Source: Frankia sp. AiPs1 (GTDB taxonomy: Bacteria > Actinomycetota > Actinomycetes > Frankiales > Frankiaceae). Taken from it: a stretch of DNA of 41,188 nt. A model generated the notes under the pieces. The model was not told the origin of the DNA. It saw only the letters and a list, made by a program, of their open reading frames with translations, and ran no database searches. The DNA lies in contig NZ_JAMQQF010000012.1 of the NCBI RefSeq assembly GCF_023716945.1, positions 1 through 41,188 on the forward strand, written 5' to 3'. How positions within the stretch are numbered: the first letter of the stretch is position 1; each line of letters starts with the position of its first letter. Shown here piece after piece: positions 10,163 through 35,466 of this stretch. The translations under genes and the position numbers were made by a program.

Positions 10163-10352
10163 CCGCAACGCCCCGCTTTCCACGACAGACGGCACGAAGC
10201 CGGCCCATCCGTCATACCCGACGCGCCCCGACCAGGAACCCGATCATAGAGCGATCACGCGGACTGGACCGTGGGCGAGGCCGCCCGCGCCGGCGACCCG
10301 GGCCAGTGGTGCGGCCGAGCCGAGCCCGCAGTCGGGTATCGTGAGATCGCCG

Positions 10353-10428
10353 GCCGGCGTGGCGCAACTGGTAGCGCACCCGACTTGTAATCGGGTGGGT
10401 AGGGCTTCCGCTATCCTCGCCGGCTCCA
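10353..10428 (+). tRNA. tRNA-Thr(TGT), degenerate T arm
   Basis: GCCGGCG pairs with CGCCGGC, the D arm and the anticodon arm (CCCGA-CTTGTAA-TCGGG, anticodon TGT) are intact, and CCA is encoded. The T arm is damaged: the stem has a C-A mismatch and a G-T pair, and the loop reads TTCCGCT instead of TTCGAGT or TTCAAGT, losing the conserved purines. The 5' half is good and the 3' half has drifted. This is what remains when an integration event or recombination replaces the 3' half, so the gene is probably a pseudo-tRNA. Confidence 0.7.
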
Positions 10429-10469
10429 GACATACCCATCCTGACCTGCGGATTCGCGGACACGAAGAT
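10384..10469 (+). repeat. Left copy of an 86-bp imperfect direct repeat (att-like)
   Basis: From CTTGTAATCGGG in the anticodon loop to about 41 bp beyond the CCA, this segment aligns without gaps to 35381-35466, with 66 of 86 bases identical by eye. The shared flank includes CCTGACCTGCGG. tRNA 3' halves are classic attachment sites for actinobacterial integrative elements, so the pair may mark the ends of a 25-kb insertion. Confidence 0.6.
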
Positions 10470-10753
10470 TCTCTACGCCGCCGCCAAGATCGAATATGGG
10501 CTCATTATGGGCTCATTCCGCACGACTCTGTCAATCAGGGACCCGTTGGCCGCGCGCTGTCGGCGTTGCTACCGCCCTCCAGCCGTGCCGTGGCAGACCA
10601 GCATCGGCACCTCAAAGGACGGGGTTGCAGGGGATGATCATCCCCGGATCCGCATCAGCGGATGATCGTCAAGTGGTGACTGGCGGTTACCGTCCGGGGG
10701 GCGTCGATTGCCTGACCCGGCTGGGGTAGCCAATCGGACGGCGGCGGGTTCAG
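10470..10753. other. Intergenic stretch between tRNA-Thr and the pPIWI-RE gene
   Basis: No convincing gene. It has a doubled ATGGGCTCATT (near 10496-10517) and, at 10630-10663, two adjacent dyads: the perfect 16-bp palindrome GGGGATGATCATCCCC and the hairpin ATCCGC-ATCA-GCGGAT. They lie about 90-125 bp past the stop of the leftward pPIWI-RE operon. A terminator or an operator-type site would both fit. Confidence 0.5.
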
Positions 10754-13390
10754 TCAGATGTATTCGTCTGCGAGTTCGCACAGGCGGAGGACGACCGGGA
10801 AGCGTGTCGCCTGGTCAGTGTGAAGGTAGTTCCGGCGCATCATGCTGGTGAAGGTCGCGAAGACAGCGGGATCGTCGTCGGGTTGAAGGAAGGCGGGGAA
10901 GACCTCGAGTGGGGCAGGGTTGGCGACCTGGCGAGTGTGGTTCCCCTGGATGTCGGGGTCGAGCTTGGTCGCTTTGAGTGGGGTCTGCATCTGGTCGGGA
11001 CGAGGGTTGAGGGAGTAGAAGACCCGGTCGCTGTAGGCGAAGAGACCGCTAATGCGCACGGGCCCGTGGCCGGGGGCGCCAAAGCCGCGGCTCACTTCCA
11101 TGCGGCTGCCCTGCTCGCGGACGCGGATGATACGCAGTCCCGGGCAGTCGGCAGGGAGGAATGTTCGCGCTGGCGGCTGGTCGTCGTCGAGGCGGACCCC
11201 TGGAAGAACGAGCCGGTCTGGGGCGACGTGCTTGTCCTGGAGCCAGTCCCAGCCCCAGGACCGAAAGCTGGCGGACCGGGCGAACACGAGCCGGTTGTGG
11301 GTGTCCTGGCCCACGGCGTCGCCGACGCCGAGGGCGTTGGCGAGGAACTGGGAGATGGCTGTCCTCTGGGCCTCGGCGGGGCCGCGGAGGCGACCGTGTC
11401 CGGATGCCAGGGCTTTCGGAAGGTCGCGGTAGTCGATGGGTTCTGGCGTCCCGTTGCGGTCCGTCGCTAGGTGGGCGACTGTGCGGCCGTCCGTGCCGAG
11501 CCGGACGACAATCGGGATGCGTGTGCTGCCCACGTGGTGGAGCCAGATCCCGATCTGTTCGAAGTCTGGAAGGTCCGTCGGCGCGGCGTAGACACCGATC
11601 CTTCCGAGCTGCCGGAGCACGTCCCGGACGGCGGCGGCGGCGCGTTCGCCCGATTCGACGGCGAGATTCGTGCCCGGGTATGGCGCCTTCGGCCGCCGGC
11701 CCTCCTTTGGTGGCGCGGTGGGCGGGGTGAACTCTTTGACGGGGCGTAGGCACTGTAGCAGCCGGCCGGTCCGCCCGAATGCCTTCTTGAGGGCTGGTTT
11801 CGGGTCGACTTGTTTGTTGCGCGCGAAGTGCTGCGCGCCTTCAAGTTCGAGGATGATGGCCGTAGGGGTGTCGCTCTTCCCGATGACCTGGGCGATGTGC
11901 TTTGCGTGCTGGTGCTGCAGATTGGTTTCGCCGCGGGTATCGCCTTGCTTCCTGTCGATGCCGGCGGCCACGATGCCCGCCTGTCGGGTCGAGAGAATGA
12001 TGTCGATATCGCCGCGGAACCGGGTGGTGCCGGAGTCGGGGGATGTGTCTACTGGGGTGAGGCCCAGATCATGTTCAATGGCGGCGCGGATCGCCTGAAC
12101 GGTTAGGTTGGACTGGGTCCAGAGTTCGATAGAGTAGACCTGTCCGGCCTCGTCGGCGGGTCGGATAAGGCGCGCGGTCCGGCTTCCAACCCGTTCGAGA
12201 TCGGCCAGCGGGCGGATTCCTCGCGGCTTGAGTATCGGCGTGAGTTGTCTGTGGATCTCCAGGTGATCTGCGGGGACGAAGCCGCTGTTGGCTGCGTGGA
12301 CCAGAGAGCGGGCCTTCTTCGGCTCGACTTCGCCGGGCGCGGCAATTTGGTCGTCGACGTCGTCAGCGGTGCTTTTGGTGCCTTCGCTGTAGAGGACATA
12401 GGCACGGATCTTGCCTTCGTCACTTGCCGTTGCCGGCTCGGCGAGCACCTTGTCGGGGGCGGGGAATGGCAAATGCGTCAGATGCGAGAGAGCGCGCGCG
12501 AGTCCTGGCGTCCAGGCCCATTGGCGCTGCCGGGTCTCCCGAGCCAGAGACTGTTGGGTGTGCGCCGCGAGCAACGTGTGGGGCTCCTGCTGGCGCAGGA
12601 AGCCTTCAGGCGCGTACAGCCAGAGGGTTGTTCGCGGAGGGCCGTCACCGCGGGACGGCACGTAGGTTACCGGGTTCAGAGGAAACCGACTGATGGACAG
12701 ATCGGCATGAATGCGCGGCGCGGGGTCGTTGGGGGCCGTCTCGACGTGGAAAGTGATCTTCGCTGTGACGGCGGCATTCCCGGCCTTCGCGTCATGAAAA
12801 GTCTGTGGTGGCCAGAGCACGGCCGCGCGCCTACCGTCCGCGTCAGGAGGACCGAGGATGTAGTCACGCGGTGTGTCCAGGATCGGCAGGCGGTGGGCCA
12901 CGACCTCGTGCGCGAGAAAGCTGGGTAGGAGCTGAAACATTGCGGGCACTGGGTCGGCGGTGCCGTTGAGGCGGCGGCCGAAGGCAAGCAGGTTAACGGG
13001 TTTTGTGGTGAACCGCAGCTCGCCTGGGTCGAGCGTTTCCCACCAGTCCCGGTCGGTATCCCATGGGCTGACTTCTGTGGTCGCCCAGGCGGCGATGCCC
13101 GCGGTAAGGACCTCGGTGTCCGCTCCGGGGTAGGTCCAGAGGAAATCCTCCTGATCGCTGCTGCGGTCGATGTAGAGGACCGCTGGATCAAGTCCGATCA
13201 ACAATTCGCGTAGGCTGCGGATTGGCAGGGACCAGTGCGGCTGAACACCTTCTCGGCGCTGGTACTCGTCCTTGAAGAGCCGGATCCAGTTCAGAGGGAG
13301 GCGGGCGACCTGCAGCTCGGTTTCCCATCGGGCGCCCTGCTCGACCGTGAACGTGGTGAGACGCATCAGGTCGGGCGTCTTAGCAGGCAC
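10754..13390 (-). CDS. pPIWI-RE protein (prokaryotic PIWI, R-E family)
   Basis: An 878-residue protein of the pPIWI-RE family, first defined computationally and named for a conserved Arg and Glu. The N-terminal 330 residues form the family-specific module; about 330-500 correspond to the MID-like region and 500-878 to the PIWI/RNase H-fold region. In the latter I see PTAIILELEG, IPIVVRLGTDG, RLVFARSASFRSWGWDWLQD, LRIIRVREQG (candidate R/E pair, residues about 753-759) and FAYSDRVFYSLNPRPDQ, the family's C-terminal signature. The family is proposed to bind nucleic-acid hybrids from invading elements. Its start overlaps the helicase stop by 11 bp, so it is the last gene of a coupled operon. I cannot assign slicer residues with confidence. 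Confidence 0.88.
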   Translation of the reverse strand: MPAKTPDLMRLTTFTVEQGARWETELQVARLPLNWIRLFKDEYQRREGVQPHWSLPIRSLRELLIGLDPAVLYIDRSSDQEDFLWTYPGADTEVLTAGIAAWATTEVSPWDTDRDWWETLDPGELRFTTKPVNLLAFGRRLNGTADPVPAMFQLLPSFLAHEVVAHRLPILDTPRDYILGPPDADGRRAAVLWPPQTFHDAKAGNAAVTAKITFHVETAPNDPAPRIHADLSISRFPLNPVTYVPSRGDGPPRTTLWLYAPEGFLRQQEPHTLLAAHTQQSLARETRQRQWAWTPGLARALSHLTHLPFPAPDKVLAEPATASDEGKIRAYVLYSEGTKSTADDVDDQIAAPGEVEPKKARSLVHAANSGFVPADHLEIHRQLTPILKPRGIRPLADLERVGSRTARLIRPADEAGQVYSIELWTQSNLTVQAIRAAIEHDLGLTPVDTSPDSGTTRFRGDIDIILSTRQAGIVAAGIDRKQGDTRGETNLQHQHAKHIAQVIGKSDTPTAIILELEGAQHFARNKQVDPKPALKKAFGRTGRLLQCLRPVKEFTPPTAPPKEGRRPKAPYPGTNLAVESGERAAAAVRDVLRQLGRIGVYAAPTDLPDFEQIGIWLHHVGSTRIPIVVRLGTDGRTVAHLATDRNGTPEPIDYRDLPKALASGHGRLRGPAEAQRTAISQFLANALGVGDAVGQDTHNRLVFARSASFRSWGWDWLQDKHVAPDRLVLPGVRLDDDQPPARTFLPADCPGLRIIRVREQGSRMEVSRGFGAPGHGPVRISGLFAYSDRVFYSLNPRPDQMQTPLKATKLDPDIQGNHTRQVANPAPLEVFPAFLQPDDDPAVFATFTSMMRRNYLHTDQATRFPVVLRLCELADEYI

Positions 13391-16300
13391 AGTTGGTCCC
13401 CCTTTGGGAGCCGAGCGGGTCGTTGCTGTGGAACATGTGACCGAGCAGCCCCCACACCGCTTCGTTGACGGCGTGGACGAGCTGGTCTGACGGGGTGCTC
13501 GGCCCGGCCGGTGGTGTGAGCAGCGTCGTGAGCAGCACGTCGGTGGCCACCACGACGCTGGTGCGCGGGGTGTCGGCCGCCGGGTCTTGGCGGGCCAGCC
13601 GTTCCGCGAAGGCCGCGTCGCAGAGCAGCACCTTGGTCGGTTGGTTTCCGCGAATGCTGCGGCCGATGGTTTGGCTCATCGGGACGAGGCTGTTCGCGAC
13701 GAAGGCGGGGCGGAACCGGTCCTCGAGGGTGCGGAAGGCCATGGGCCGGCCGATGACGTCGTACCAGGTGGCGCGGGCCTGGTTCCGTAGCTCGCGGGCG
13801 GTCGCGGCCAGCTGCCCGGGTGGCGCGGTTGCAGGCTGCGCGAGGTGGCGCATCGCGAGTTCGGCGACCAGGGAGAGCGGGAAACGCAGTTCCATCGGCG
13901 GCGGGTGCGACCGGGTCAGGTAGATCACGGCGCCGAGTGCTGCGGTGTTGTTGGTGTTCAGCACGTTGTAGCCACGCTGGATGGCCATCTCTGCGGCCAC
14001 GAGGATATCGCTGGTGCCTTTGCCGAAGTCGCCGACGGACCGTCGCGCGATGCCGGCCATGCCCAGATCGGAGGCGTCGGGTACGACGTTGCGCGCTGTG
14101 TAGCGACCACGGCTGTTGATGTGCGCGGCGGCGACCTTGGCCTCCTCGCCGGAGAGAACGACGAACAGGAGCCGCTGACGGTCGGCCGGGAGTTGCGCGC
14201 GCAGCTCGTCGACGACGCTGCGGTGGCGGCCGCCACCGGGCTCGCATAGCGCGGTCACCAGACGCCGCAACCCGTCGTGCCGCTCGGTGCCGAGACGTCC
14301 GGACACGTAGATGGGGCCGCCGCCGGCGGTGTGGGAAGGGCGGACCGCCAACGTGGAGGTCAGGAGCGCTTCGCGGTCCTCCTCCGGTTGCCGGAGTGCC
14401 GCGGTTGGTGTGATCGGAATATGGAAAAACGACGAGCCCGGCGTCCAGCTTGTGGCGGAGGTGAGGATCACGTGCGGGCCGTCGATCCCCTCGGACGCGA
14501 GCAGGTCGTGGGCGTGGTGGAGCAGCCAACGCCCGATGCCGTGGACCCACAGCAACTGAAGCGATGCCCCACCGTCGCGTTGGGGTACCCAGCGGAGCGC
14601 GAGAATGTTGCCCATCGGGGCCTCTGGGACGAGCGGCCGGTAGTCGCGGGGCGGCTGGTCGAGCCAGAAGCGCTCCTCGTCCGGAAGCGAAAGCTGCTCA
14701 CGGACCGATGGGTAGAGGGTGACCATCTCGAAGAAGGTCGTTGTGATCCGGGCTGCCCAGATGGCGGCCTCGAGCACCAGCCGAAGCAGCGGCTGTTCAC
14801 GCGCGATCCTGGCGCCGTCCACAGTGCTGGGGGTGTGGTCGTCGATCCAGGCGTCGAAGGCGGCCTCGACCGCCGACTCGTCACGAACCAGCTGGGTGAT
14901 CGTGTCGGCGGCCGGCCTCAGAGGATGGTCTCTCGTCTCGAGCGGGCTCTCGGCGAACTCCTGCATCTGTCCCTGGTAGAAGTCCTCGGCCGCATGTTCG
15001 GTCTGGCTGTCGCCCTCGCCACGGGTAGGGAGCCCATGGAGCGTGCGGGCGACTCTGCGGAAGAGCGAGTGCGCGGTGAAGGGCGCGTCATTGAGCAGCG
15101 CCTTGAGCCGTTCGCCCGAGTCTGACAGGGCGATCCTGTGCAGAGTGAAGACCGCCTGGTTGTGGATTTGCACGAGCTCGAACCAGCGCTGGACCTGCGG
15201 GTCGGTGGCCGGCGCCATCGCCCTGGTCGCGAGCGCATTGTTGGTGTGGGCGACCATCCGGTGCGACCAGCCGTCCTGGCCCGCTACGAGCTGCTCATGC
15301 TGAACGAACCGGCCGTCGAGGACCTCCTGGACCGCGTCGGCTTCGTCGAAGATGACCAGGTCCATCGTGTGCTGGAGCTGCTCGAACCAGCGCATCGCCG
15401 CTGTCGCCGGTGCGGCCTTGGTGGCGACCAGGCACTGAGGGGTCGTGACCCAGATCTGCGCCGTGGCGACCTCCCGCAGGGCCTTCCGTGTGGGGCAGAC
15501 GGAAAGCAGCGGGCAGTCGTAGGCCGTACGGCTCTCGCCTTCGGCCTCGCGCAGGCGGCCCTGGCAGGGGAACTCGTGTGTCTGCAGCGGCTCCCATCGC
15601 GGGCTCGGCTGCCACCGGAATGGTTCCAGCAGGCATGAGGTGTTCGCGTACGCGGCGGCGGGGTCGGGCGAATTGTAGTCGTCGGGGACGAAGGTCGCCG
15701 CCTCGTCGATCATCGACCGCCAGTAGCGGGCCGCGTGTTCGCCGCGGGATCTCTCCCCGATCAGAGGAACGGCGTCGAGGCCGAGTGTCCGGAGGAACGA
15801 CACCTTGGCGAGGACATCGCCGACTGAACTGACCACGAGGCAGACCCGATTGCCGTGCTCCGTGACCCTGTTGATTGTGAGGAGGTCCATGAGGGTCGTC
15901 TTGCCGGAGTTCATCAGCCCGACGATGTGACTGACCCCGTCCAGCGTGAACTCTTCGGAACGGTCGGCCAGCGTGCCCGCCGCGGGGTCCACGGTGCTGA
16001 GCCGGATGTCGGTGAGCCGCTTCGTGAAGTTGCGGTTCGTGACGTCCGGCCGGCCCGCGAGCTGCTCGTCAACCTGAGCAGCGGTTGATGCAAGATCCTC
16101 TGTGAGGGAGACGGTCCATGGCGACCGGCGCCGCGATGTTGTGGCGGGTAGCTGTGCCAACGGCAACGGGGCCGGCAGGTGGTTCGGCATCTGGACGTAC
16201 TGGGTTACGTCGCCGGCGAGGAACGTGTACCGGACTCCCGCCTGCGCCGGTGGCGCCGCCGAGACGGAGACATAGGCCAACGGCTCCGCCAGAGCATTCG

Positions 16301-16703
16301 CGTAGACCTCGTCCCGACCGGTACACACGGACGTCGCCCGCGGGACGAAGATCGTCTGATCGTTGACCCGGCGTGCCGGGTCGTCCGTGCGGTCGAAGGC
16401 GCGGAACCGGTCGGGCACCCGCACGTACTGGTTGAGCAGCGTGCGCCAGTAGCCCCGGCGTGCGACATCGCCCATCCGGTGCCGCAGTCGTCGAACCACC
16501 GGAACCAGATCGTCGGGCACCGCCACATAGCCGGACAGGATCGGCGGCAGCACGCCGATGGGCTCATCCGGAAAGTTCCGCGTCAGGAAGTACAGGCCAA
16601 GCTCAACCTGGCACAAAGCACCCGCGGGCAGCCCGGTGGACGGCAGCCCGGCGCCAGTAAGCCCCTTGGCGAGGTTGGTGCGCCAATGTCCCGATTCCCT
16701 CAT
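13380..16703 (-). CDS. DinG/XPD-type SF2 helicase of the pPIWI-RE island
   Basis: A 1107-residue superfamily 2 helicase. Walker A is GLMNSGKTT (residues 262-270), Walker B is LVIFDEADAV (449-458) and motif VI is QTIGRSIRG (1011-1019). Between Walker A and B lie four cysteines at about 357, 380, 397 and 403, the arrangement of the XPD/DinG iron-sulfur domain. The N-terminal 240 residues form an extra region, probably one of the island-specific domains. Such helicases unwind 5'-3' and tolerate DNA-RNA hybrids, fitting a proposed role in presenting R-loops to the PIWI protein. The start overlaps the nuclease stop as ATGA and its end overlaps the pPIWI-RE start. Confidence 0.87.
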   Translation of the reverse strand: MRESGHWRTNLAKGLTGAGLPSTGLPAGALCQVELGLYFLTRNFPDEPIGVLPPILSGYVAVPDDLVPVVRRLRHRMGDVARRGYWRTLLNQYVRVPDRFRAFDRTDDPARRVNDQTIFVPRATSVCTGRDEVYANALAEPLAYVSVSAAPPAQAGVRYTFLAGDVTQYVQMPNHLPAPLPLAQLPATTSRRRSPWTVSLTEDLASTAAQVDEQLAGRPDVTNRNFTKRLTDIRLSTVDPAAGTLADRSEEFTLDGVSHIVGLMNSGKTTLMDLLTINRVTEHGNRVCLVVSSVGDVLAKVSFLRTLGLDAVPLIGERSRGEHAARYWRSMIDEAATFVPDDYNSPDPAAAYANTSCLLEPFRWQPSPRWEPLQTHEFPCQGRLREAEGESRTAYDCPLLSVCPTRKALREVATAQIWVTTPQCLVATKAAPATAAMRWFEQLQHTMDLVIFDEADAVQEVLDGRFVQHEQLVAGQDGWSHRMVAHTNNALATRAMAPATDPQVQRWFELVQIHNQAVFTLHRIALSDSGERLKALLNDAPFTAHSLFRRVARTLHGLPTRGEGDSQTEHAAEDFYQGQMQEFAESPLETRDHPLRPAADTITQLVRDESAVEAAFDAWIDDHTPSTVDGARIAREQPLLRLVLEAAIWAARITTTFFEMVTLYPSVREQLSLPDEERFWLDQPPRDYRPLVPEAPMGNILALRWVPQRDGGASLQLLWVHGIGRWLLHHAHDLLASEGIDGPHVILTSATSWTPGSSFFHIPITPTAALRQPEEDREALLTSTLAVRPSHTAGGGPIYVSGRLGTERHDGLRRLVTALCEPGGGRHRSVVDELRAQLPADRQRLLFVVLSGEEAKVAAAHINSRGRYTARNVVPDASDLGMAGIARRSVGDFGKGTSDILVAAEMAIQRGYNVLNTNNTAALGAVIYLTRSHPPPMELRFPLSLVAELAMRHLAQPATAPPGQLAATARELRNQARATWYDVIGRPMAFRTLEDRFRPAFVANSLVPMSQTIGRSIRGNQPTKVLLCDAAFAERLARQDPAADTPRTSVVVATDVLLTTLLTPPAGPSTPSDQLVHAVNEAVWGLLGHMFHSNDPLGSQRGTNCAC

Positions 16704-17887
16704 CGTCCCAGCCTCCGTGCCCGGTCCGTCACCAGCGCCACCAGACGCTTCTCGTCCACGACCTCGACCCCGTCGGTCCGGCCCTCGAGCTCAGCCTTCA
16801 GGTCCGCGATGTAGCCAATCTGGCGTGCCCTGTGATGAGGGAGGACGAGAAAGTGTCGATCACAGGGAAGCGTGTCTGGCCAGCGGAACATCCGTCCCAG
16901 TAGCCGCGGGCTCGTCTGGTCCTTCGCATCGACGCCCCAGGTCTCCACAACGTCGGTCCCGTCCCCATCCAGGCGAAGAAACTCGATCAGGACGTCCAGG
17001 GTGTCCAGCGCCGGATACGCGGTGACCCTGACCCTCCGGCTCAAGTCGCTGGCGGAGAGCCGGTCAAGAATCCGGGCCTCGACGAGACCCGGGTCATGCA
17101 CGAACCGGCGGGTCGCCCGGTGCTGCTCGAAGATGGCCGCGAGGGGCGTAACGGTGACAGACTCGGCCGGCTGGTCGACACATCCCGGCGTCGCGCAGCG
17201 GGAATCATGGTCTGCCAGGATGTTTCCGCAACCGACACATCGGATGATCACCTGTGGGCCCTGGGCGGGCCGGGCCACGTAGGCCATCTCGATCAGCCGG
17301 CGCAGGTACGTGGTGCCATGCCGATCGGCCGCGCGGAACTGACGTTCTAGCTTCTTCAGATCACGATCCGTCAGGAAAGGGCGGTCGATGAGCAGCCGCC
17401 GCAGCGCGGCATAGGCCCGGTCGGTCTCGCCGTCCTCGCCGCCGTTCTCGGAAGCTGCGGTCCGGAGCGCCTCGTAGACACGGTTCTCGATCCACTCGGA
17501 CTCCACGTCCACCGACGGCGCCAGCCGCGTGCTCTGCTCGGCGAGTCCCGACAGTTCGCCATCGACAAGCAGGCTGCTCTGCAGGTCCTGGTCTGACAGC
17601 GAGAGCGCGACCGGCCACGCCGCGAGCGGGTGCGCGCACAGGGCCAACAAGTCGAGATCGTTACCCAAGGGGGCGACGCCCTGCTCGTGGCAGCGCCACC
17701 ACAGCCGACCGAAGGCCGTCCGCCACGCTGCGGGTAGGAGACCGTCGCCATCGTCCGGCTGGCCCGCCCCCGCGCGCTCACGACGCCGCAGCATGCTGGC
17801 GAGGCCGCTCGCCAACAGCGCCAAGGTCAGGTAGTCGTCCGCAACCTGACCGGCACCAGGCGCTGTGTGCTCAGACTCGGTCACCAT
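16700..17887 (-). CDS. REase-like nuclease of the pPIWI-RE island
   Basis: A 395-residue protein, first gene of the three-gene island. Residues about 217-236 form a zinc ribbon (CVGC, CATPGC). The C-terminal third has a restriction-endonuclease fold: Glu in GLVEARIL (about 270), Asp in LDTLDVLIEF (about 298) and DAK in GVDAKDQ (320-322), matching E-D-(D/E)xK. The N-terminal 200 residues are helical with no motif I know and may be the domain unique to these islands. ATG 17887 has GGGGG just upstream; the frame is open to 18112 without a site. Its stop overlaps the helicase start by 4 bp. The presumed job is cleavage of DNA marked by the PIWI-helicase pair. Confidence 0.8.
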   Translation of the reverse strand: MVTESEHTAPGAGQVADDYLTLALLASGLASMLRRRERAGAGQPDDGDGLLPAAWRTAFGRLWWRCHEQGVAPLGNDLDLLALCAHPLAAWPVALSLSDQDLQSSLLVDGELSGLAEQSTRLAPSVDVESEWIENRVYEALRTAASENGGEDGETDRAYAALRRLLIDRPFLTDRDLKKLERQFRAADRHGTTYLRRLIEMAYVARPAQGPQVIIRCVGCGNILADHDSRCATPGCVDQPAESVTVTPLAAIFEQHRATRRFVHDPGLVEARILDRLSASDLSRRVRVTAYPALDTLDVLIEFLRLDGDGTDVVETWGVDAKDQTSPRLLGRMFRWPDTLPCDRHFLVLPHHRARQIGYIADLKAELEGRTDGVEVVDEKRLVALVTDRARRLGR

Positions 17888-17949
17888 AAAGCCCCCGCAA
17901 GCCTCACGTCTGTCGCCGTCCGCAGTCGATCTGCTGCGCCGCGGACAGG

Positions 17950-17977
17950 TAGACAGTAAACACTCGGCCTCTGACAA
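17950..17977 (-). promoter_or_regulatory. Candidate promoter for the pPIWI-RE island
   Basis: On the minus strand TTGTCA (17977-17972) and TGTCTA (17955-17950) are 16 bases apart, a reasonable -35/-10 pair about 63 bp before the nuclease start. It lies in the 311-bp gap shared with the divergent pentapeptide gene, which holds nothing else I can name. Confidence 0.3.
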
Positions 17978-18198
17978 CTTCGGTGGGGGCTCCGGGAGCG
18001 TGACCCACACACCGACAGCATGTCCAGCCACCACGATCGCGGGTGCCCGTGCGCCGCCCGGCCCACAGATGCCGCCTGACGACGCCCACGGCGCCACCGC
18101 CGAGGCACTCATCCTGCTCGCGAGGTGCCCGGACGGAGATTGTCTACCTTCCGTCAGACTGTCGACGCAGAGCGGCGTAGAGACGTAGAACAGGTTGC

Positions 18199-19713
18199 AT
18201 GATTCGGGGAAACAGCTGGCAACGGTGGCTGCTGCTGGGATTCGGGTTCGGGGGTCTGGTAGTACTCGCGGTGCTATGGAACAAAGCGCCAGTGTTCTAC
18301 GTGCATGCCAAGGACCCTGGCGGGGCCGTCGCGACCACTCGGACCGGGATCCTCGCCGCGATGGCCGGGTTCATCGCGTTCACCGGCGTCATGCTCAACC
18401 TCGCTGAGACCCGCCGCACCAACGAACTCACCCGGGAACGCGACGAGCAGGCCCGGGAGCGGGACCGGGAGATACTCGCGGAAACCCGGCGAGCCAACGA
18501 ACAGGCCCGGGAGCGGGACCGGGCTACCCATGAGCGGGAGTTGACCGCGCAGCTGGCCGACCGGTACACCGCGGCGATTAGCCAGGTCGGTTCGGACACG
18601 TTGGATGTCCGGCTCGGTGGGCTGTACGCCTTGGAGCAGATCGCCCTCGAGTCCGCCACCCACCACCGCACCGTAGTAGAGGTGCTCAGCGCGTTCATCC
18701 GCGAGCACACCATCCCCGGCCGACCCGGCGCCTTACGTCGTCTACAGGTCCCCCGTTACACTCCTCCCATCTTGTCAATCCCGGTGGATTCCGACAGCGA
18801 CAACAAAGAATACCCCGAAATCGAGGCATCCTCGCCGGCAAGTGTAGAGACCGATATTCAGGCCGCGCTGAGTATCCTCGGTGGCCTGCCCCCCCGCGAA
18901 GATGTTCCCCGGGGCAACCTCACCGGCGCCGTTCTGACCGGCGCTCGGCTGGATGACGCCAACCTCACCCGCGCCGAGCTGGACGGGGCCGACCTCACCG
19001 GTGCCTGGTTGAACGGGGCCAACCTCACCCTTGCTCAGCTGGACGGGGCCAACCTCACCCGCGCCAAGCTGGGTATGGCCACCCTCAAGAGCGCCCGGCT
19101 GCGCAAAGCCGACCTCACCCGCGCCGAGCTGGACGGGGCGGACCTCGTCGGCGCCCAGTTGGACGACGCGAACCTTACCCACGCCGAACTCCGTGACGCG
19201 AATCTCAGGAACGCGGGAATGGACAGGGCGAACCTCACCAGCGCCGCGCTGTTCAGGGCCAACCTCACTGGTGCGGATCTCCGGGCGGCCGACCTCACCG
19301 GCGCCGAGCTGGGCAATGCGAACCTCACCCACGCTGGGCTGGGCGGGGCCAACCTCACTGGCGCTCAGCTGCACGGGACCAACGTCACTGGGGCCAGGCT
19401 GGACGGGGCAGACCTCACCGGCGCCCGGCTCAACAGAGCCAACCTCACCGGCGCCCAGCTTAACAAAGCGAACCTCACCGGCACCGGGCTGGACGAGGCG
19501 GACCTTACCGATGCCCGCTTGGACCGGGCGAACCTCACTGGCGCGCTTCTCACCGGCACTCAGCTGATTAGGGCGAGCCTCCACGGGGCCCGGCTAAACG
19601 GGGCGAACTTGTTTGGTGCGCTGGGATTATCACAAGAGCAGGTGAATGAGGCCCAAGGAGACGCAGACACCGGACCTCTATTTGATCTGGACCGACCGGC
19701 CACCTGGTCCTAA
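18199..19713 (+). CDS. Membrane-anchored pentapeptide-repeat protein
   Basis: A 504-residue protein in four parts. Two hydrophobic segments (about residues 8-25 and 50-68) should span the membrane. A strongly charged Arg/Glu coiled coil follows (about 70-115). Then comes a conserved helical block (RYTAAISQVGSDTLDVRLGG through AFIREHTIP, about 120-172). The last half, about 233-480, is a run of A(D/N)L(T)xA-type pentapeptides, which fold as a right-handed quadrilateral beta-helix, ending in a SQEQVNEAQGDADT tail. Similar proteins are common in actinomycetes; some pentapeptide helices mimic DNA and protect gyrase, but these membrane ones are uncharacterised. It is divergent from the pPIWI-RE island. 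Confidence 0.85.
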   Translation: MIRGNSWQRWLLLGFGFGGLVVLAVLWNKAPVFYVHAKDPGGAVATTRTGILAAMAGFIAFTGVMLNLAETRRTNELTRERDEQARERDREILAETRRANEQARERDRATHERELTAQLADRYTAAISQVGSDTLDVRLGGLYALEQIALESATHHRTVVEVLSAFIREHTIPGRPGALRRLQVPRYTPPILSIPVDSDSDNKEYPEIEASSPASVETDIQAALSILGGLPPREDVPRGNLTGAVLTGARLDDANLTRAELDGADLTGAWLNGANLTLAQLDGANLTRAKLGMATLKSARLRKADLTRAELDGADLVGAQLDDANLTHAELRDANLRNAGMDRANLTSAALFRANLTGADLRAADLTGAELGNANLTHAGLGGANLTGAQLHGTNVTGARLDGADLTGARLNRANLTGAQLNKANLTGTGLDEADLTDARLDRANLTGALLTGTQLIRASLHGARLNGANLFGALGLSQEQVNEAQGDADTGPLFDLDRPATWS

Positions 19714-19842
19714 CCGACTCGATGACGACCTCGCATCTCCCGATGGACGGGGATGCCTGGCAGGCACCGCCCGCGCTCGCCGCACAGGTTCGCGAGTTGC
19801 GCGGCCTGACCCGGCCGCCGATGCGGCCGGGGGGTCGCTCGC

Positions 19843-20545
19843 TCACTCCGTCATCGCTGTGGAGCGGCCGGCAGCCTTACGGCGATGCTTGTATGCCCAG
19901 CCTTCACGCAGGCCGGCACCAACAACCCAGGAAAGGATCTCAGCCGCGGGGATGCTCAGCGGGGAGCGGCCATGGCGGTCCCACTCCTGCTGGAACCGGG
20001 CCGCAGCGATTTCGCGGGCCTTCGCGGCGCGTGCGACGTCGTCCGCCGGCCACACTGGCACATCGGTACGGCCTGCCGGCTCCGGAGCATCGGTTGCTGC
20101 CGCTGCACCTTCCGGCTGGGCGTCGCCGTCCTCAGCTCGGGGCGACGGTACGAAGTCGGCGGCTCCCGGCGCGGCATCCGGTCGCGCGTGGCCGTGCGGT
20201 TCCTGCTCGGGGTCGCCGGGCCGGGGCGTTGGGCTGCCTGGCCCTGTGGTGGGCGTGGATTCCCCGGTTGGGGCTGCGGTGCTGTGCGCCGAGCTCGGCA
20301 GAACGGCAGCGATGCGCTCCCCGCGGCCGCGCCAGGGCCGCCATCGGTGGGATGCGCGCTCGGACACATCGGCCTCGGACTGGTCCGGCTCGACCGCCCT
20401 GTCCGTCGCCGCGTCGGCGGGGTCGGTAGTCAGGGGGGCCGAGCGGCGAGCGATCCGATCTGCCAGGACCGCCGCGCACGGCCACCAGGTCCAGCCCGGC
20501 CGGGAACATCCATGCGAATCGACGATCTAGGCCGGCATCGGTCAT
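19843..20545 (-). pseudogene. Frameshifted, possibly DUF2637-like, mobile-element-type gene
   Basis: From 20545 the minus strand reads RRFAWMFPAGLDLVAV, similar in feel to the first membrane segment of DUF2637 (SpdB-like) proteins of actinobacterial integrative elements. That frame is then lost. From 20367 another frame gives a Pro/Ala-rich linker and an ordered C-terminus (AAARFQQEWDRHGRSPL, AEILSWVVGAGLREGW). The two frames are offset by one base, suggesting a frameshift. Alternatively 19843-20367 alone is a 174-residue hypothetical gene. The DUF2637 link is a weak inference. Nothing else in 19714-20551 looks coding. Confidence 0.4.
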
Positions 20546-20551
20546 GATCGT

Positions 20552-21931
20552 CTACACGTGTACGTCGGCCGTCCCGGCGTGGATCGACGACAACAACCGG
20601 TCCGCTCGGGCCACCGTCGGGTCCGTGCGAGCCGTCTGCCAGCGGTTGCGGATCTGGCCGAGCGTGCGGCGCAGGCGCTCGGACTTCACCGCCGCCAGGT
20701 CTTCGGCCAGGCCCAGCAGTGTCGCCGCGGCGGCTTCGGGTCGGTGCCGTTGGAGTTGGATCGTCGCGAGTCGGGTTCCCACGAGCGCGCGGGTGCGTCG
20801 CTCCGTCGGTTTCCGGGTGGCGACTGATGCGGCGAGGTGTGTCTCCGCGCCGGGTAGGTCGCCGAGGTTCAGCAAGGTCAGGCCCGCTTGGTGTTCGTAG
20901 CCTTCTCGCCGGTAGTTCCCGGTCCACTCGATGGCGGGTGGGCTGTCTGCGTGTTCGAGGTCGGTTTCGGTGCTGGTCAGCAGGCGGATCGCGCGGCGCG
21001 GGTCGTGGCCGGTGGCGGCCAGGGCTTCGGCGCGCATCCCGGTCACCCATGCGCGTGTGCGGGTGGGTGCGCCGCCGCGTAGTGCGTCGGCGGAGGCGTC
21101 GGCGAGGGCGAGTCCGCGGGACGGGTGGCCGAGTTCGACGGCTTGTGAGGCCAGGGAGCGTAGGGCGGTGGCGCGCATCAGGGGTGCGTCGGCTTCGGTG
21201 GCGAGTCGGACGGCCTGGATGTAGTAGCGCTGCGCGAGACCGGGTTGTAGATCGTCTGCGGCCATCCAGCCGGCGAGGTAGGTGACTTCGGCGGCGGCGG
21301 CGAAGAGGTCGGGGCGGATCTGGCCGGCGGCGACGTGCAGGAGTGGTGCGACGTCGTGGACGAGGTAGGCCGCGACTGCCGAGGGGGCGTGGCCGCCGCC
21401 GTAGAGGTCGTCGACGTCGCCGAAGACCTGTGCCATCGCTCGGATGCGGGCGACGTCGGCCGGGCCGACCCGGGCGGTAGTTCGGGTCTGGAGGGCGAGG
21501 CGGGTTGCGGTTGTTGGGGGGAGGGTCGCTGCGGCCAGGGAGTAGAGGCCGGCGGTGATTGTGGTGCGCCGATCGAGCATGTCTGTCCGTCCCAGGCGGG
21601 TGACCCATGCGACGGGGTCACCGCCCCAGGGGTCGTCGGGTCGCGTTCCGCGGGCTGTATGACCTGGGGACCAGCCTAGGTCTGCCGGGGTGATGCTCGG
21701 CTTGTCCAGGAGTCTGGCGAACGTTTCGGTCACTGCGGGGATGATGCCCGGCAGTGGGGTCGAGCCGTTGAGCCAGCGTGCCAGCGATGCGGCCGAGCAC
21801 TGCGTCTGGGAGCCGTTCTCGCGGCTGACGCGGTTGATGGTGGCGGCGATGGCGTTGTAGGTATGGCCCGTCTGGTCGATAAGCAACGCTAACGCAGCGT
21901 TCTGTACAGGCGTGGTGCGGGGTCGCGGCAT
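20552..21931 (-). CDS. XRE-type regulator with TPR-like C-terminal region
   Basis: A 459-residue protein. The first 70 residues form a helix-turn-helix of the XRE/Cro type (YNAIAATINRV, SAASLARWLNG). The rest is alpha-helical and TPR-like, with repeated Ala-rich pairs such as YYIQAVRLATEADAPLM and GLTLLNLGDLPGAETHL. This architecture is frequent in streptomycete and Frankia regulators that sense small peptides or co-regulate adjacent genes. ATG 21931 follows GGGAAGGACAG; the frame continues to 22240 with no ribosome site and would run over the peptide gene. It is divergent from the peptide/MBL/kinase cassette with a 187-bp gap, so it is the probable regulator. Confidence 0.8.
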   Translation of the reverse strand: MPRPRTTPVQNAALALLIDQTGHTYNAIAATINRVSRENGSQTQCSAASLARWLNGSTPLPGIIPAVTETFARLLDKPSITPADLGWSPGHTARGTRPDDPWGGDPVAWVTRLGRTDMLDRRTTITAGLYSLAAATLPPTTATRLALQTRTTARVGPADVARIRAMAQVFGDVDDLYGGGHAPSAVAAYLVHDVAPLLHVAAGQIRPDLFAAAAEVTYLAGWMAADDLQPGLAQRYYIQAVRLATEADAPLMRATALRSLASQAVELGHPSRGLALADASADALRGGAPTRTRAWVTGMRAEALAATGHDPRRAIRLLTSTETDLEHADSPPAIEWTGNYRREGYEHQAGLTLLNLGDLPGAETHLAASVATRKPTERRTRALVGTRLATIQLQRHRPEAAAATLLGLAEDLAAVKSERLRRTLGQIRNRWQTARTDPTVARADRLLSSIHAGTADVHV

Positions 21932-25399: not shown

Positions 25400-25599
25400 T
25401 AAGCAACGTCTGCATGAGGCTGTATGCGCCACGTCACCGAGGCCCACTGCTAGCGCCCAGACTGCCTCAGCGACGAGGGCACCGCCACCGAAGCCAGTGC
25501 CTACAAGGCGGTCGCCTGTTGAGTCTTGGCTACCCGCCATCACGGATCGGCGTGGTGCCGCCCGGGGTTGATCGACACGATCGAACGGCGACCTACCAG

Positions 25600-25672
25600 A
25601 GCCGGTGAGGGGACTCGAACCCCTAACCGCTCGATTACAAGTCGAGTGCGCTACCAATTGCGCCACACCGGC
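25600..25672 (-). tRNA. tRNA-Thr(TGT)
   Basis: All four arms fold: acceptor GCCGGTG/CACCGGC, anticodon loop CTTGTAA with anticodon TGT, and a normal T arm AGGGG-TTCGAGT-CCCCT. No CCA is encoded. It is inverted relative to the tRNA-Thr-like sequences at 10353 and 35381 and is the only one of the three that looks fully functional. Confidence 0.92.
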
Positions 25673-25812
25673 TGGTGCCTTGACGATACCCGACCCTGTA
25701 CCGCCCCCGGTCGAGGCGCCGGATGTGGGCGCGGCACAGAGGCATCCCTCGATGCCCGAACACACGTCCGGGCATCGAGGGGCCGCCGACCGGCCAGGGC
25801 AGGACGGTGTGA

Positions 25813-26800
25813 GGCTCCAAAATTCTGGTTTCGGCCTGTGAGCTGGCTTTTTACGGTTGACATGATCGTCCGTGGGGGTGGGCAGGCGGCGTTGCGGTAC
25901 TCGTTGATCAGCCCACCGAGGATGCGCGTGCGTCGGATGGTGGAATCCAAAGTTGGAATGATCACGGGTGGTGCCGCGTCGGGTGGGTGCTGGTCGAGAG
26001 ATCGGTGGGGCCGGTGGGTGTTGACATGCTCGGCGTAGCTGGTGAGGACCGAGGTCAGGTGCCGTTCGGAGACGATCAACAGTCTGTCGGTGCATTCGCG
26101 GCGGGTCGTGCCGATCCAGCGTTCCGCGATCGAGTTCGCCTTCGGGGCTTGCGGGGGTGTGCGCACCACGTCGATGCCGGCCCCGGTGAAGGCGGCGTCG
26201 AACGAGGCCGTGAACGTCGCATCTCGGTCACGGATGAGGAACCTGAACCGGCGACTGTGTTCCTCGAGGTCCATCAGCAGGTTCCTGGCCTGCTGGGTGA
26301 CCCAGGCTGCGGTCGGATGCTTCGTGACCCCGAGGACATGAACGTGGCGGGTGGCGTGCTCGACGACGAAGAACACGTAGATCCGCTGCAGGAACACGGT
26401 GTCGACGGTGAGGAAATCGCCGGCCAGCAGGCCGGAGGCCGGCGCGGACAGGAACGCCCGACAGGAGCCCTCTGCCCGCCGGGGCGCGGGATCGACGCCG
26501 GCGCGGTGCAGGATCCGCCAGACGGTGGCGACCCCCACCGAGTAGCCCAGCCCGACGAGCTCGCCGTGGATCCGGCGGTGGCCCCAGGTCGGATTCTCCC
26601 GGGCGAGGCGCAGGACCAGCTCGCGGATCTCCCGGCGGACCGGCGGCCGTCCGGGGGTCTTACGCGGATAGGTCCATTGTCGTGCGAGGAGCTCACGGTG
26701 CCAGCGCAGCACGGTGCCAGCGCAGCACGGTGGCCGGGGTGAGGGAAAACGAACCCCAGCGAGCCCGGGGAAGGAGCCGGGACAGGGCTGCGAGGACCAT
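25813..26800 (-). pseudogene. IS481/IS3-type transposase (rve integrase core), frameshifted
   Basis: The body has the retroviral-integrase core: D in LLAGDFLTVD, D in FLIRDRDATF, and E in SIAERWIGTTRREC, so the DDE triad is present. Upstream of TVLRWHRELLARQW the family sequence continues in another frame (MVLAALSRLLPRAR, then SFSLTPATVLRW). The break coincides with a 16-bp tandem duplication at 26701-26732; removing one copy restores the frame. The usual first 60-70 residues of such transposases are missing, and the C-terminal frame runs on past GGLINEY. The copy is therefore probably inactive. Confidence 0.75.
26701..26732. repeat. 16-bp tandem duplication inside the transposase
   Basis: CCAGCGCAGCACGGTG occurs twice in direct tandem, with a further partial copy (ACGGTG) on the left. 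The net insertion of 16 bases shifts the transposase frame by one. Confidence 0.9.
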
Positions 26801-27017
26801 CCAGCCTGCCTGACACTGGCCCGGTCCGGCAGGCAAACGGGCAGGTCACCGTCCGAATCGGCGTTCTGGAGCCCCGCAGGCATGGTTGTTGATTTCTACC
26901 TGTATCTGGCCGCCGTGTTCGTCACTGTCCGTTGCGTGATCTAGAAGGCTCGGGCGACGTACCGCTGGGAGACCCGGCCCACCACTCGACGCCTGAAGTA
27001 GCCAATCCTCGGTCGGG

Positions 27018-34862: not shown

Positions 34863-35380
34863 CCCTCAGGACCGCTGACCCCCGGAGCCTGGCCATCGAG
34901 CCGCTGACCCCCGGAGCCCACACCGCGACCGGTAGGCACCTGCCAGCCTGCCAGCCTGCCAGACAGCCAGACAGCCAGGCACCGCAGCCGGCCCGCCGCC
35001 GTGGACATGACTCCCCGGCGGCGGGCCTCCCGCCGCGGCAAGCCCGAGTTCGCCGGCTGCGGGTCAGCCGACGATCCGCATTCCAGTCACACAGGGTGCA
35101 CATGATCCCCTGCGGCCGGACGCCCACAGCCTTTGACGCCCTCCGAGGAACGTCGAGCACCCGCCGACCTGACGCCCCTTGGAAGGACCGCCCCTCTCCA
35201 ATCAGGCCACAGTCAAGCCATGATCTCCGGCGTGGCGTTGGGGGTGGGCTCATTGTGGGTGCAGATGTTCCGGCACGGCGCGGCACCCGCGGGCACGCTA
35301 CGGCACCGAAAACGCCGTGACCTGGGAGAACGGGTCATCGCCCGGCACGTTCCGACATGGCGCGGCACGTCTGCGTGCGT
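34863..35380. other. Intergenic stretch with short tandem repeats
   Basis: No supported gene. GCTGACCCCCGGAGCC occurs twice near 34871-34920, and an 8-bp GCCAGCCT/GCCAGACA array lies at about 34946-34982. At 35265 and 35350 a 20-bp motif (GTTCCGGCACGGCGCGGCAC and a 2-base variant) recurs just before the tRNA-Thr fragment. Confidence 0.5.
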
Positions 35381-35466
35381 CTTGTAATCGGGCGGTTAGG
35401 GGTTCAAGTCCCCTCGCCGGCTCCAAAGCTATCCCACCTGACCTGCGGTTTTGTCGACACCGAGAT
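35381..35466 (+). repeat. Right copy of the 86-bp repeat: tRNA-Thr 3' half plus flank
   Basis: It begins at CTTGTAATCGGG in the anticodon loop and includes a normal T arm (AGGGG-TTCAAGT-CCCCT), CGCCGGC and CCA to 35425, then 41 bp of flank that still resembles that at 10429. The 5' half of the tRNA is absent; upstream bases do not fold into a D arm. This is an attR-like remnant complementary to the damaged copy at 10353. Confidence 0.7.

Follow-up and report, generated by a model that had tools for sequence, protein, structure and literature searches.

A 41,188-bp stretch of DNA from the soil actinobacterium Frankia sp. AiPs1 (contig NZ_JAMQQF010000012.1, assembly GCF_023716945.1; hereafter, the window) carries a complete pPIWI-RE three-gene island, which encodes a zinc-ribbon PD-(D/E)XK nuclease (REase), a DinG-type Fe-S superfamily 2 (SF2) helicase and pPIWI-RE itself. 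Both catalytic Asp positions in the RNase H domain of this pPIWI-RE are replaced, and the protein appears unable to slice, as judged from an alignment and a predicted model. Because the slicer residues are lost whereas the guide pocket and the motifs of the helicase and REase are kept, we favour, with moderate confidence, the reading that the operon encodes a slicer-less interference system guided by nucleic acids. Besides sequence and model, this reading draws on analogy with known systems.

Organization of the pPIWI-RE operon

The genes lie on the reverse strand of the window (10754–18112) in the order REase, DinG, pPIWI-RE. Translation of REase probably starts at 17887 rather than at 18112, where its open reading frame (ORF) begins, because 82 family ORFs have a median length of 401 aa (quartiles 386–430) and the conserved domain starts past that Met. 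The likely gene (16700–17887) encodes 395 aa with a helical domain Y, a zinc ribbon and the PD-(D/E)XK nuclease; REase residues are numbered here by the 470-aa ORF. The DinG gene (13380–16703) encodes 1107 aa with an N-terminal domain Z, and the pPIWI-RE gene (10754–13390) encodes 878 aa with X, MID and RNaseH(PIWI) domains. A preliminary description of this DNA had reported overlaps of 4 and 11 bp on a single strand; these were located at 16700–16703 (REase/DinG) and 13380–13390 (DinG/pPIWI-RE), and the three ORFs are free of internal stops.

The same description had called the operon a complete pPIWI-RE island, and the profile search that it proposed bore this out. All Pfam matches to the three proteins were above curated cut-offs: pPIWI_RE_X (2.8e-30), RNaseH_pPIWI_RE (2e-23) and MID_pPIWI_RE (5.8e-13) in pPIWI-RE, pPIWI_RE_Z (5.8e-17) in DinG, and pPIWI_RE_REase (4.2e-19) and pPIWI_RE_Y (2e-9) in REase. 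The PADLOC 'Ppr' models PprPIWI (1e-87), PprDinG (3.1e-127) and PprRE (1.5e-18) also matched. The operon is a complete island of a known defence family, and the match is far beyond chance. As the preliminary description had stated, no CRISPR-like array was found in a repeat scan of 10200–20600, no source of guide RNA was seen (Rfam at gathering thresholds gave just two tRNAs across the window), and no reverse transcriptase was present among 34 window ORFs scanned with Pfam.

Replacement of the catalytic residues of pPIWI-RE

An AlphaFold2 model of pPIWI-RE, built from a 50-protein alignment, had a mean pLDDT of 88.3 and a pTM of 0.90. Foldseek gave TtAgo (4nca) as the best PDB match (E 2.3e-16, probability 1.00), and 173 PDB matches had E ≤ 0.001. 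Among the 50 matches listed, 48 were titled Argonaute, AGO or PIWI; the other two were chains of 4kpy, titled 'DNA binding protein', which we take to be TtAgo. The structure check proposed earlier thus returned an Argonaute-like model in which the PIWI/RNase H fold is present. TM-scores of the 50 matches were modest (0.36–0.44 on the query; rmsd about 10–17), and the modelled protein has a fold in common with Argonautes without being close to them in structure. With long prokaryotic Argonautes (pAgos) such as TtAgo, it shares the predicted fold and the MID and RNase H domains; it differs from them in that an N-terminal X domain replaces N/PAZ, the canonical Pfam Piwi profile does not match at E 0.001, and identity is 8–12% in the structural matches listed. 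No sequence relatives were found in the PDB at E ≤ 1.

In the RNase H fold, the first catalytic Asp is expected on strand 1. DSSP placed strand 1 of the model at 611–620, strands 2–3 within 623–641 and strand 4 at 700–705, and W616 and R705 of the window protein occupy both inferred catalytic-Asp positions. It is because of this double replacement that slicing is probably lost. The preliminary description had held the motifs of all three proteins to be intact. This was correct for those it named, including the pPIWI-RE signatures LRIIRVRE (from 752) and DRVFYSLNPRP (from 788), but not for the RNase H catalytic site.

Relatives were collected with a helicase-alignment scan that returned at least 119; the best 80 of these were used together with the window and other fetched loci, and the set is therefore biased towards the best helicase matches. 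The profile search covered 90 loci, two of them fragments only; 88 had DinG and 86 had pPIWI-RE. The alignments used 78 of the 86 pPIWI-REs (>700 aa), 81 of the 88 helicases (≥950 aa) and all 82 REases; several rows are near-identical strains and are not independent. Asp was absent from column 616 in all 78 pPIWI-REs, the residues being Trp (62), His (7), Tyr (5), Phe (2), Lys (1) and Thr (1). At column 705, Asp was present in 14/78, His in 32 and Arg in 9. The Arg was found in 9/9 members of the window's clade and in no other row; the nine include L127, which is too short for the helicase tree described below. The helicase gene of this close relative (L127:8876-13479) appears to be interrupted by an inserted ORF.

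The replacement extends to proteins outside this alignment. Seven plasmid-borne pPIWI-REs were tried and five were aligned (a Bradyrhizobium protein had no profile match, and the second protein of an Azospirillum plasmid matched weakly). The first Asp was absent from five plasmid proteins (two from Azospirillum and one each from Calothrix, Cupriavidus and Hymenobacter), and the second was retained in four of the five aligned. The first Asp was likewise absent from the pPIWI-RE of a genome in the phylum of a Clostridiales isolate. None of the sampled pPIWI-REs has both catalytic Asps.

Conservation of the guide pocket, the helicase and REase

Other sites of pPIWI-RE are conserved. R753 and E829 are present in the window protein, and both occur in 74/78 aligned proteins. 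The MID pocket motif K/Y531-x3-K/R535-x10-Q546 is kept in 73/78, the five exceptions all being Nostoc proteins. It is spaced like the Y-x3-K-xn-Q motif of pAgo MID domains that is quoted in a passage of PMC11096173.

The helicase has a Walker A lysine (K268), D453-E454, four Cys (357, 380, 397 and 403) and motif VI arginines (R1015/R1018); the Walker A GK, DE, the four Cys and the motif VI Arg are intact in 81/81 aligned helicases. REase has a zinc ribbon (C292/C295/C306/C311) and the nuclease motif E345-D373-D395xK397. D395-x-K397 is kept in 72/82 REases, two of which lack D373. The AlphaFold2 model of REase had a pLDDT of 92.0. Neither DinG nor REase had a significant sequence match in the PDB, and a sequence link from either protein to DdmD there was rejected on that ground. 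Together, the alignments suggest that selection maintained guide-end binding and unwinding, and in most cases the partner nuclease, while slicing was abandoned.

Proposed mechanism and comparison with known systems

We propose that the conserved MID pocket of pPIWI-RE would bind the 5' end of a short guide, and that the guide would pair with invading DNA (plasmid, phage or conjugating) or an R-loop. With both RNase H catalytic Asps replaced, pPIWI-RE itself could not cut. The guide–target complex would engage the Fe-S DinG helicase, which would unwind from the hybrid and expose DNA; the exposed DNA would be cut by the zinc-ribbon PD-(D/E)XK REase, and the foreign DNA would be removed. We assign the unwinding to DinG and the cutting to REase, after guided binding, because the arrangement is that of DdmDE and ApsAB. 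The fixed gene order of most islands, the islands on plasmids and the HsdM genes near some clade relatives, all described below, also speak for this reading. It is from this analogy and from the sequences that we infer guide use, the type of target, contacts among the three proteins, the order of events and the removal of foreign DNA.

In the passages on DdmDE and ApsAB in PMC11096173 and PMC12904381, as in the window, an inactive Argonaute-like protein is combined with an SF2 helicase and a PD-(D/E)XK nuclease. In DdmDE and ApsAB, helicase and nuclease are fused in one protein, whereas the window has separate genes and a four-Cys DinG-type helicase. Part of PMC11096173 describes plasmid removal by ApsAB, an Argonaute-like protein and a helicase-nuclease; helicase and MID-pocket mutants abolished plasmid loss, and a nuclease mutant had a partial effect. 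ApsB is described there as lacking the PIWI RNase H fold, whereas the window pPIWI-RE has a predicted one. In the passages of PMC12904381, the names DdmD and DdmE are swapped relative to the usual usage.

The three-gene island was described in 2013, before DdmDE and ApsAB (Burroughs, Iyer and Aravind; PMC3702460). According to portions of that paper, catalytic residues are retained in a subset of the family, and pPIWI-RE also occurs as a stand-alone gene. The window shares with the island described there the domains, the gene order, the overlapping genes, R753 and E829. It differs in having both catalytic Asps substituted, with the Arg at the second position marking a small actinobacterial clade, in a REase without a Pfam helix-turn-helix (HTH) domain, and in the absence of the extra PDDEXK, kinase, methylase and STAND genes discussed below. 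The outline of the mechanism has already been postulated: a section of a 2023 review (PMC10573157) has the helicase open targets, and the nuclease help to make guides and cut. The new part is the loss of the slicer across the sample.

Genomic island around the operon

The preliminary description had placed the operon in a putative 25-kb insertion. A degenerate tRNA-Thr(TGT) copy with an altered T arm (10353–10428, forward strand; ARAGORN; Rfam 53.4 bits) lies at the left edge, and a direct repeat of the 48 nt of the tRNA-Thr 3' end (35378–35425, forward strand), 81% identical to that copy, is a candidate distal attachment site. The span between the repeats is about 25.0 kb, in agreement with the size given. 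The insertion is composite, however, with several tRNA-derived copies, and its left boundary alone is tied to relatives. An intact tRNA-Thr(TGT) (25599–25672; ARAGORN; Rfam 73.5 bits) lies inside the island in the opposite orientation, on the reverse strand. A region of 25514–25734, covering this tRNA and its flanks, matches the tRNA site of another genome (G001) at 89%. The 3' end of a DDE-type (rve_3) transposase ORF (25651–26883, reverse strand; Pfam) overlaps the intact tRNA by 22 bases; no site-specific integrase or conjugation gene was found among the window ORFs scanned.

In blastn comparisons, gapped collinearity of the left flank extends to 10537 for Frankia sp. QA3, and to about 10330 and about 10506 for two further members of the genus. 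Homology to QA3 and to another relative (G010) stops at 10537, and that to G010 resumes at 20529, continuing to 25803 at 96% identity. These breakpoints delimit a cassette of about 10 kb containing the operon (10538–20528); the corresponding stretch of G010 is about 4 kb long and shows no similarity to it by blastn. The GC content is 67.5% in the operon and 67.8% in the cassette, compared with 72.9% in the left flank and 72.5% at the right end, in agreement with the apparent position of the operon on an exchangeable cassette in a tRNA hot spot. An HMGL-like gene of the left flank turned out to be accessory; it had a close match (72%) in one of 12 other genomes, with about 30–34% in the rest.

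Three tRNA-Thr-derived copies also occur on contig C3 (L037) of G010, arranged as in the window. Two Frankia genomes share this triple layout, with a decaying left copy, and it probably marks a hot spot of nested integration.

The cassette also contains, in divergent orientation to the operon, a gene for a pentapeptide-repeat protein with a hydrophobic N-terminus (18199–19713, forward strand; Pfam). By single-linkage clustering of neighbours, with shadow ORFs included, it clustered with a single gene in each of 2/87 other islands. A role as fourth operon component is unsupported with so few ties, and the protein is probably a passenger.

Distribution of the family

Complete islands on one strand and in the same order were found in 80/88 loci, and seven of the remaining eight sit at contig ends. 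Among the matches listed, the highest helicase identity was 50% (Spongiactinospora and Sphaerisporangium). In a helicase tree of 81 rows, the window fell in an 8-row clade with an SH-aLRT of 100 and a long branch. Type I methylase genes (HsdM) lie near 5/8 clade relatives, two of which are closely related strains; the PADLOC scan of clade neighbours covered 42/62 neighbour ORFs.

The family was present in 2/13 genomes of the genus sample, namely the window's own and QA3. The QA3 island (L106 / L048) is not at the tRNA-Thr site. It lies on a different tree branch, its REase is dead and a STAND gene is present, all of which points to more than one acquisition of the family by Frankia. In the phylum sample, 6/396 genomes had the family, including the window's own; in the gammaproteobacterial sample, 1/369 did, and this was the seed genome itself. 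Two of 398 genomes matched in the phylum of the Clostridiales isolate: one was a further three-gene island, and the other a false match to an elongation-factor-like protein. Stand-alone pPIWI-RE, which would have served as a slicer contrast, was not found in the gammaproteobacterial (369) or Clostridiales-phylum (398) samples, leaving the statement that an island implies a slicer-less protein without a contrast group there. No match was found in 50,697 phage records, and a viral scan with a single protein, which reaches close relatives only, gave nothing.

pPIWI-RE islands also occur on plasmids, some of which are typed as conjugative. A plasmid of Bradyrhizobium elkanii encodes, immediately after the helicase, a very large protein with the annotation RNaseH-domain (L148:9841-16652), and an Azospirillum ramasamyi plasmid has two consecutive genes annotated RNaseH-domain (L153:9711-12251 and 12276-16541). 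In the plasmid island of Streptomyces BB1-1-1 (L063:9371-11124), two genes follow on the same strand, overlapping as if in one operon; the first is small and has no significant Pfam match, and the second encodes an Mrr-type nuclease. Five islands are from Nostoc (L064, L065, L086, L089 and L101); two plasmid copies have an annotated tyrosine recombinase about 1–2.3 kb downstream, and L086, L089 and L101 have a related same-strand gene downstream. Two Streptomyces-like genomes have C-terminal pPIWI-RE fragments (L058 and L062) in addition to a full island.

An enlarged form in a sister clade

In 44/88 islands, all from one actinobacterial clade, a PD-(D/E)XK nuclease gene (Pfam PDDEXK_1) lies by the REase start on the same strand; the part of PMC3702460 describing the island puts REase first. 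The nuclease has a median length of about 550 aa and invariant Cys, His, D, D and ExK columns (for example, L097:6220-7854), and its presence requires one state change on the helicase tree. It is already in databases and not new, the PADLOC model PprPDDEXK matching 3/3 scanned. A Ser/Thr kinase gene is nearby in 30/44 islands with this nuclease and an N6 DNA methylase gene in 22/44, compared with 1/44 and 1/44 without it, a contrast inflated by shared ancestry, shorter contigs and profiles seeded from the islands themselves. When the upstream sequence is required to span at least 5 kb, the kinase occurs in 27/40 and the methylase in 22/40 with the nuclease versus 0/25 and 1/25 without it. PADLOC matches to the kinase and methylase genes include components of MADS.

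Ten islands (L078, L081, L082, L087, L106, L108, L112, L135, L136 and L145) instead have an NB-ARC/TPR STAND gene. The protein has a SARP-like BTAD domain in its N-terminal part in 4/7 scanned, for which an Avs-like effector is unsupported; in L106, L108 and L112, the N-terminal part was assigned neither an effector nor a regulator domain. The set of ten coincides exactly with the islands whose REase lacks D395/K397, and the methylase matched in 0/10 of them; D-x-K is retained in 22/22 islands with methylase and nuclease. STAND gain and REase loss require two changes each, on the same tree branches, which is too few for a test. The window operon has none of the PDDEXK, kinase, methylase and STAND genes of the sister clade nearby.

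Taken together, we tentatively suggest, at somewhat less than even confidence, that most islands form a separately assembled 'split DdmDE' class, with guided but slicer-less relatives of Argonaute and with cutting passed to partner nucleases, of which one clade was enlarged and the window is the minimal form. The enlarged form would comprise a methyltransferase or SARP-type STAND protein, a kinase, a Cys-rich PDDEXK nuclease, REase, DinG and pPIWI-RE.

Alternative explanations and implications

Several observations weigh against guided interference without a slicer. As reported in part of Huang 2022 (PMC10991935), PsPIWI-RE of Pseudomonas stutzeri performs RNA-guided DNA cleavage and DNA-guided RNA cleavage; this depends on D525 and D610, and the gene is described as occurring together with those for DinG and an RNase. 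PsPIWI-RE is thus reported active, whereas the window member appears inactive; the two were compared by description. From spacing only, we guess that D525/D610 correspond to columns 616/705, and PsPIWI-RE may belong to another branch. The preliminary description had expected little or no experimental study of the family. Studies are indeed few, but this one reports cleavage and a deletion phenotype; a search outside of which lay most subscription journals and all preprints found no other. The catalytic columns 616/705 are themselves defined by alignment and a predicted model, and a Glu at 618 in three clade members, with an Asp there in one distant row of the 78, means that some metal binding may persist. 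The REase D-x-K is lost in 10/82 relatives, and the REase model had no significant PDB structure match (best, Can2; E 0.016). A guide source was found neither by Rfam nor by the repeat scan, and the Pfam scan of 34 window ORFs gave no DNA methylase. The density of defence genes around islands was controlled solely by between-clade comparison.

The nearest rival is the R-loop restriction put forward for this island in 2013, as outlined in sections of PMC3702460. pPIWI-RE would need no loaded guide to sense DNA–RNA hybrids formed on invaders during transcription or replication; it would recruit DinG and REase, and it may cut the RNA strand where active. Both DinG as a partner and the absence of a guide source from our scans would suit this model, but the window member is unlikely to cut RNA without its catalytic Asps, and the conserved MID pocket points to bound 5' ends; we regard this model as rather unlikely. 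A housekeeping role, in which the complex would resolve replication or transcription conflicts or terminate replication, has been suggested for PsPIWI-RE, and the P. stutzeri deletion strain is reported in the same portion of PMC10991935 to be ciprofloxacin-sensitive and filamentous. Such a role in DNA repair is hard to reconcile with the patchy distribution (2/13 in the genus and 6/396 in the phylum, each with the window's own, and 1/369 in the gammaproteobacterial sample), with carriage in a tRNA island and on plasmids, and with the restriction genes that adjoin some relatives, and we judge it improbable. The operon could also serve a mobile element rather than the host, in competition with other elements or in maintenance. 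The composite tRNA-Thr island, the cassette swap relative to G010 and the copies on plasmids, some typed conjugative, fit this idea; the scanned window ORFs include a DDE-type transposase (rve) but no site-specific integrase or conjugation gene, and the phage records gave no match, so that we consider it very improbable.

Within the Argonaute superfamily, pPIWI-RE forms a deep branch. If its island form is slicer-less, the PsPIWI-RE study would be a poor model for that form, and the question of guide and cutter would reduce to mutants in the MID pocket, the helicase and REase. With only three genes, the minimal operon of Frankia sp. AiPs1 would be a practical choice for testing the mechanism.

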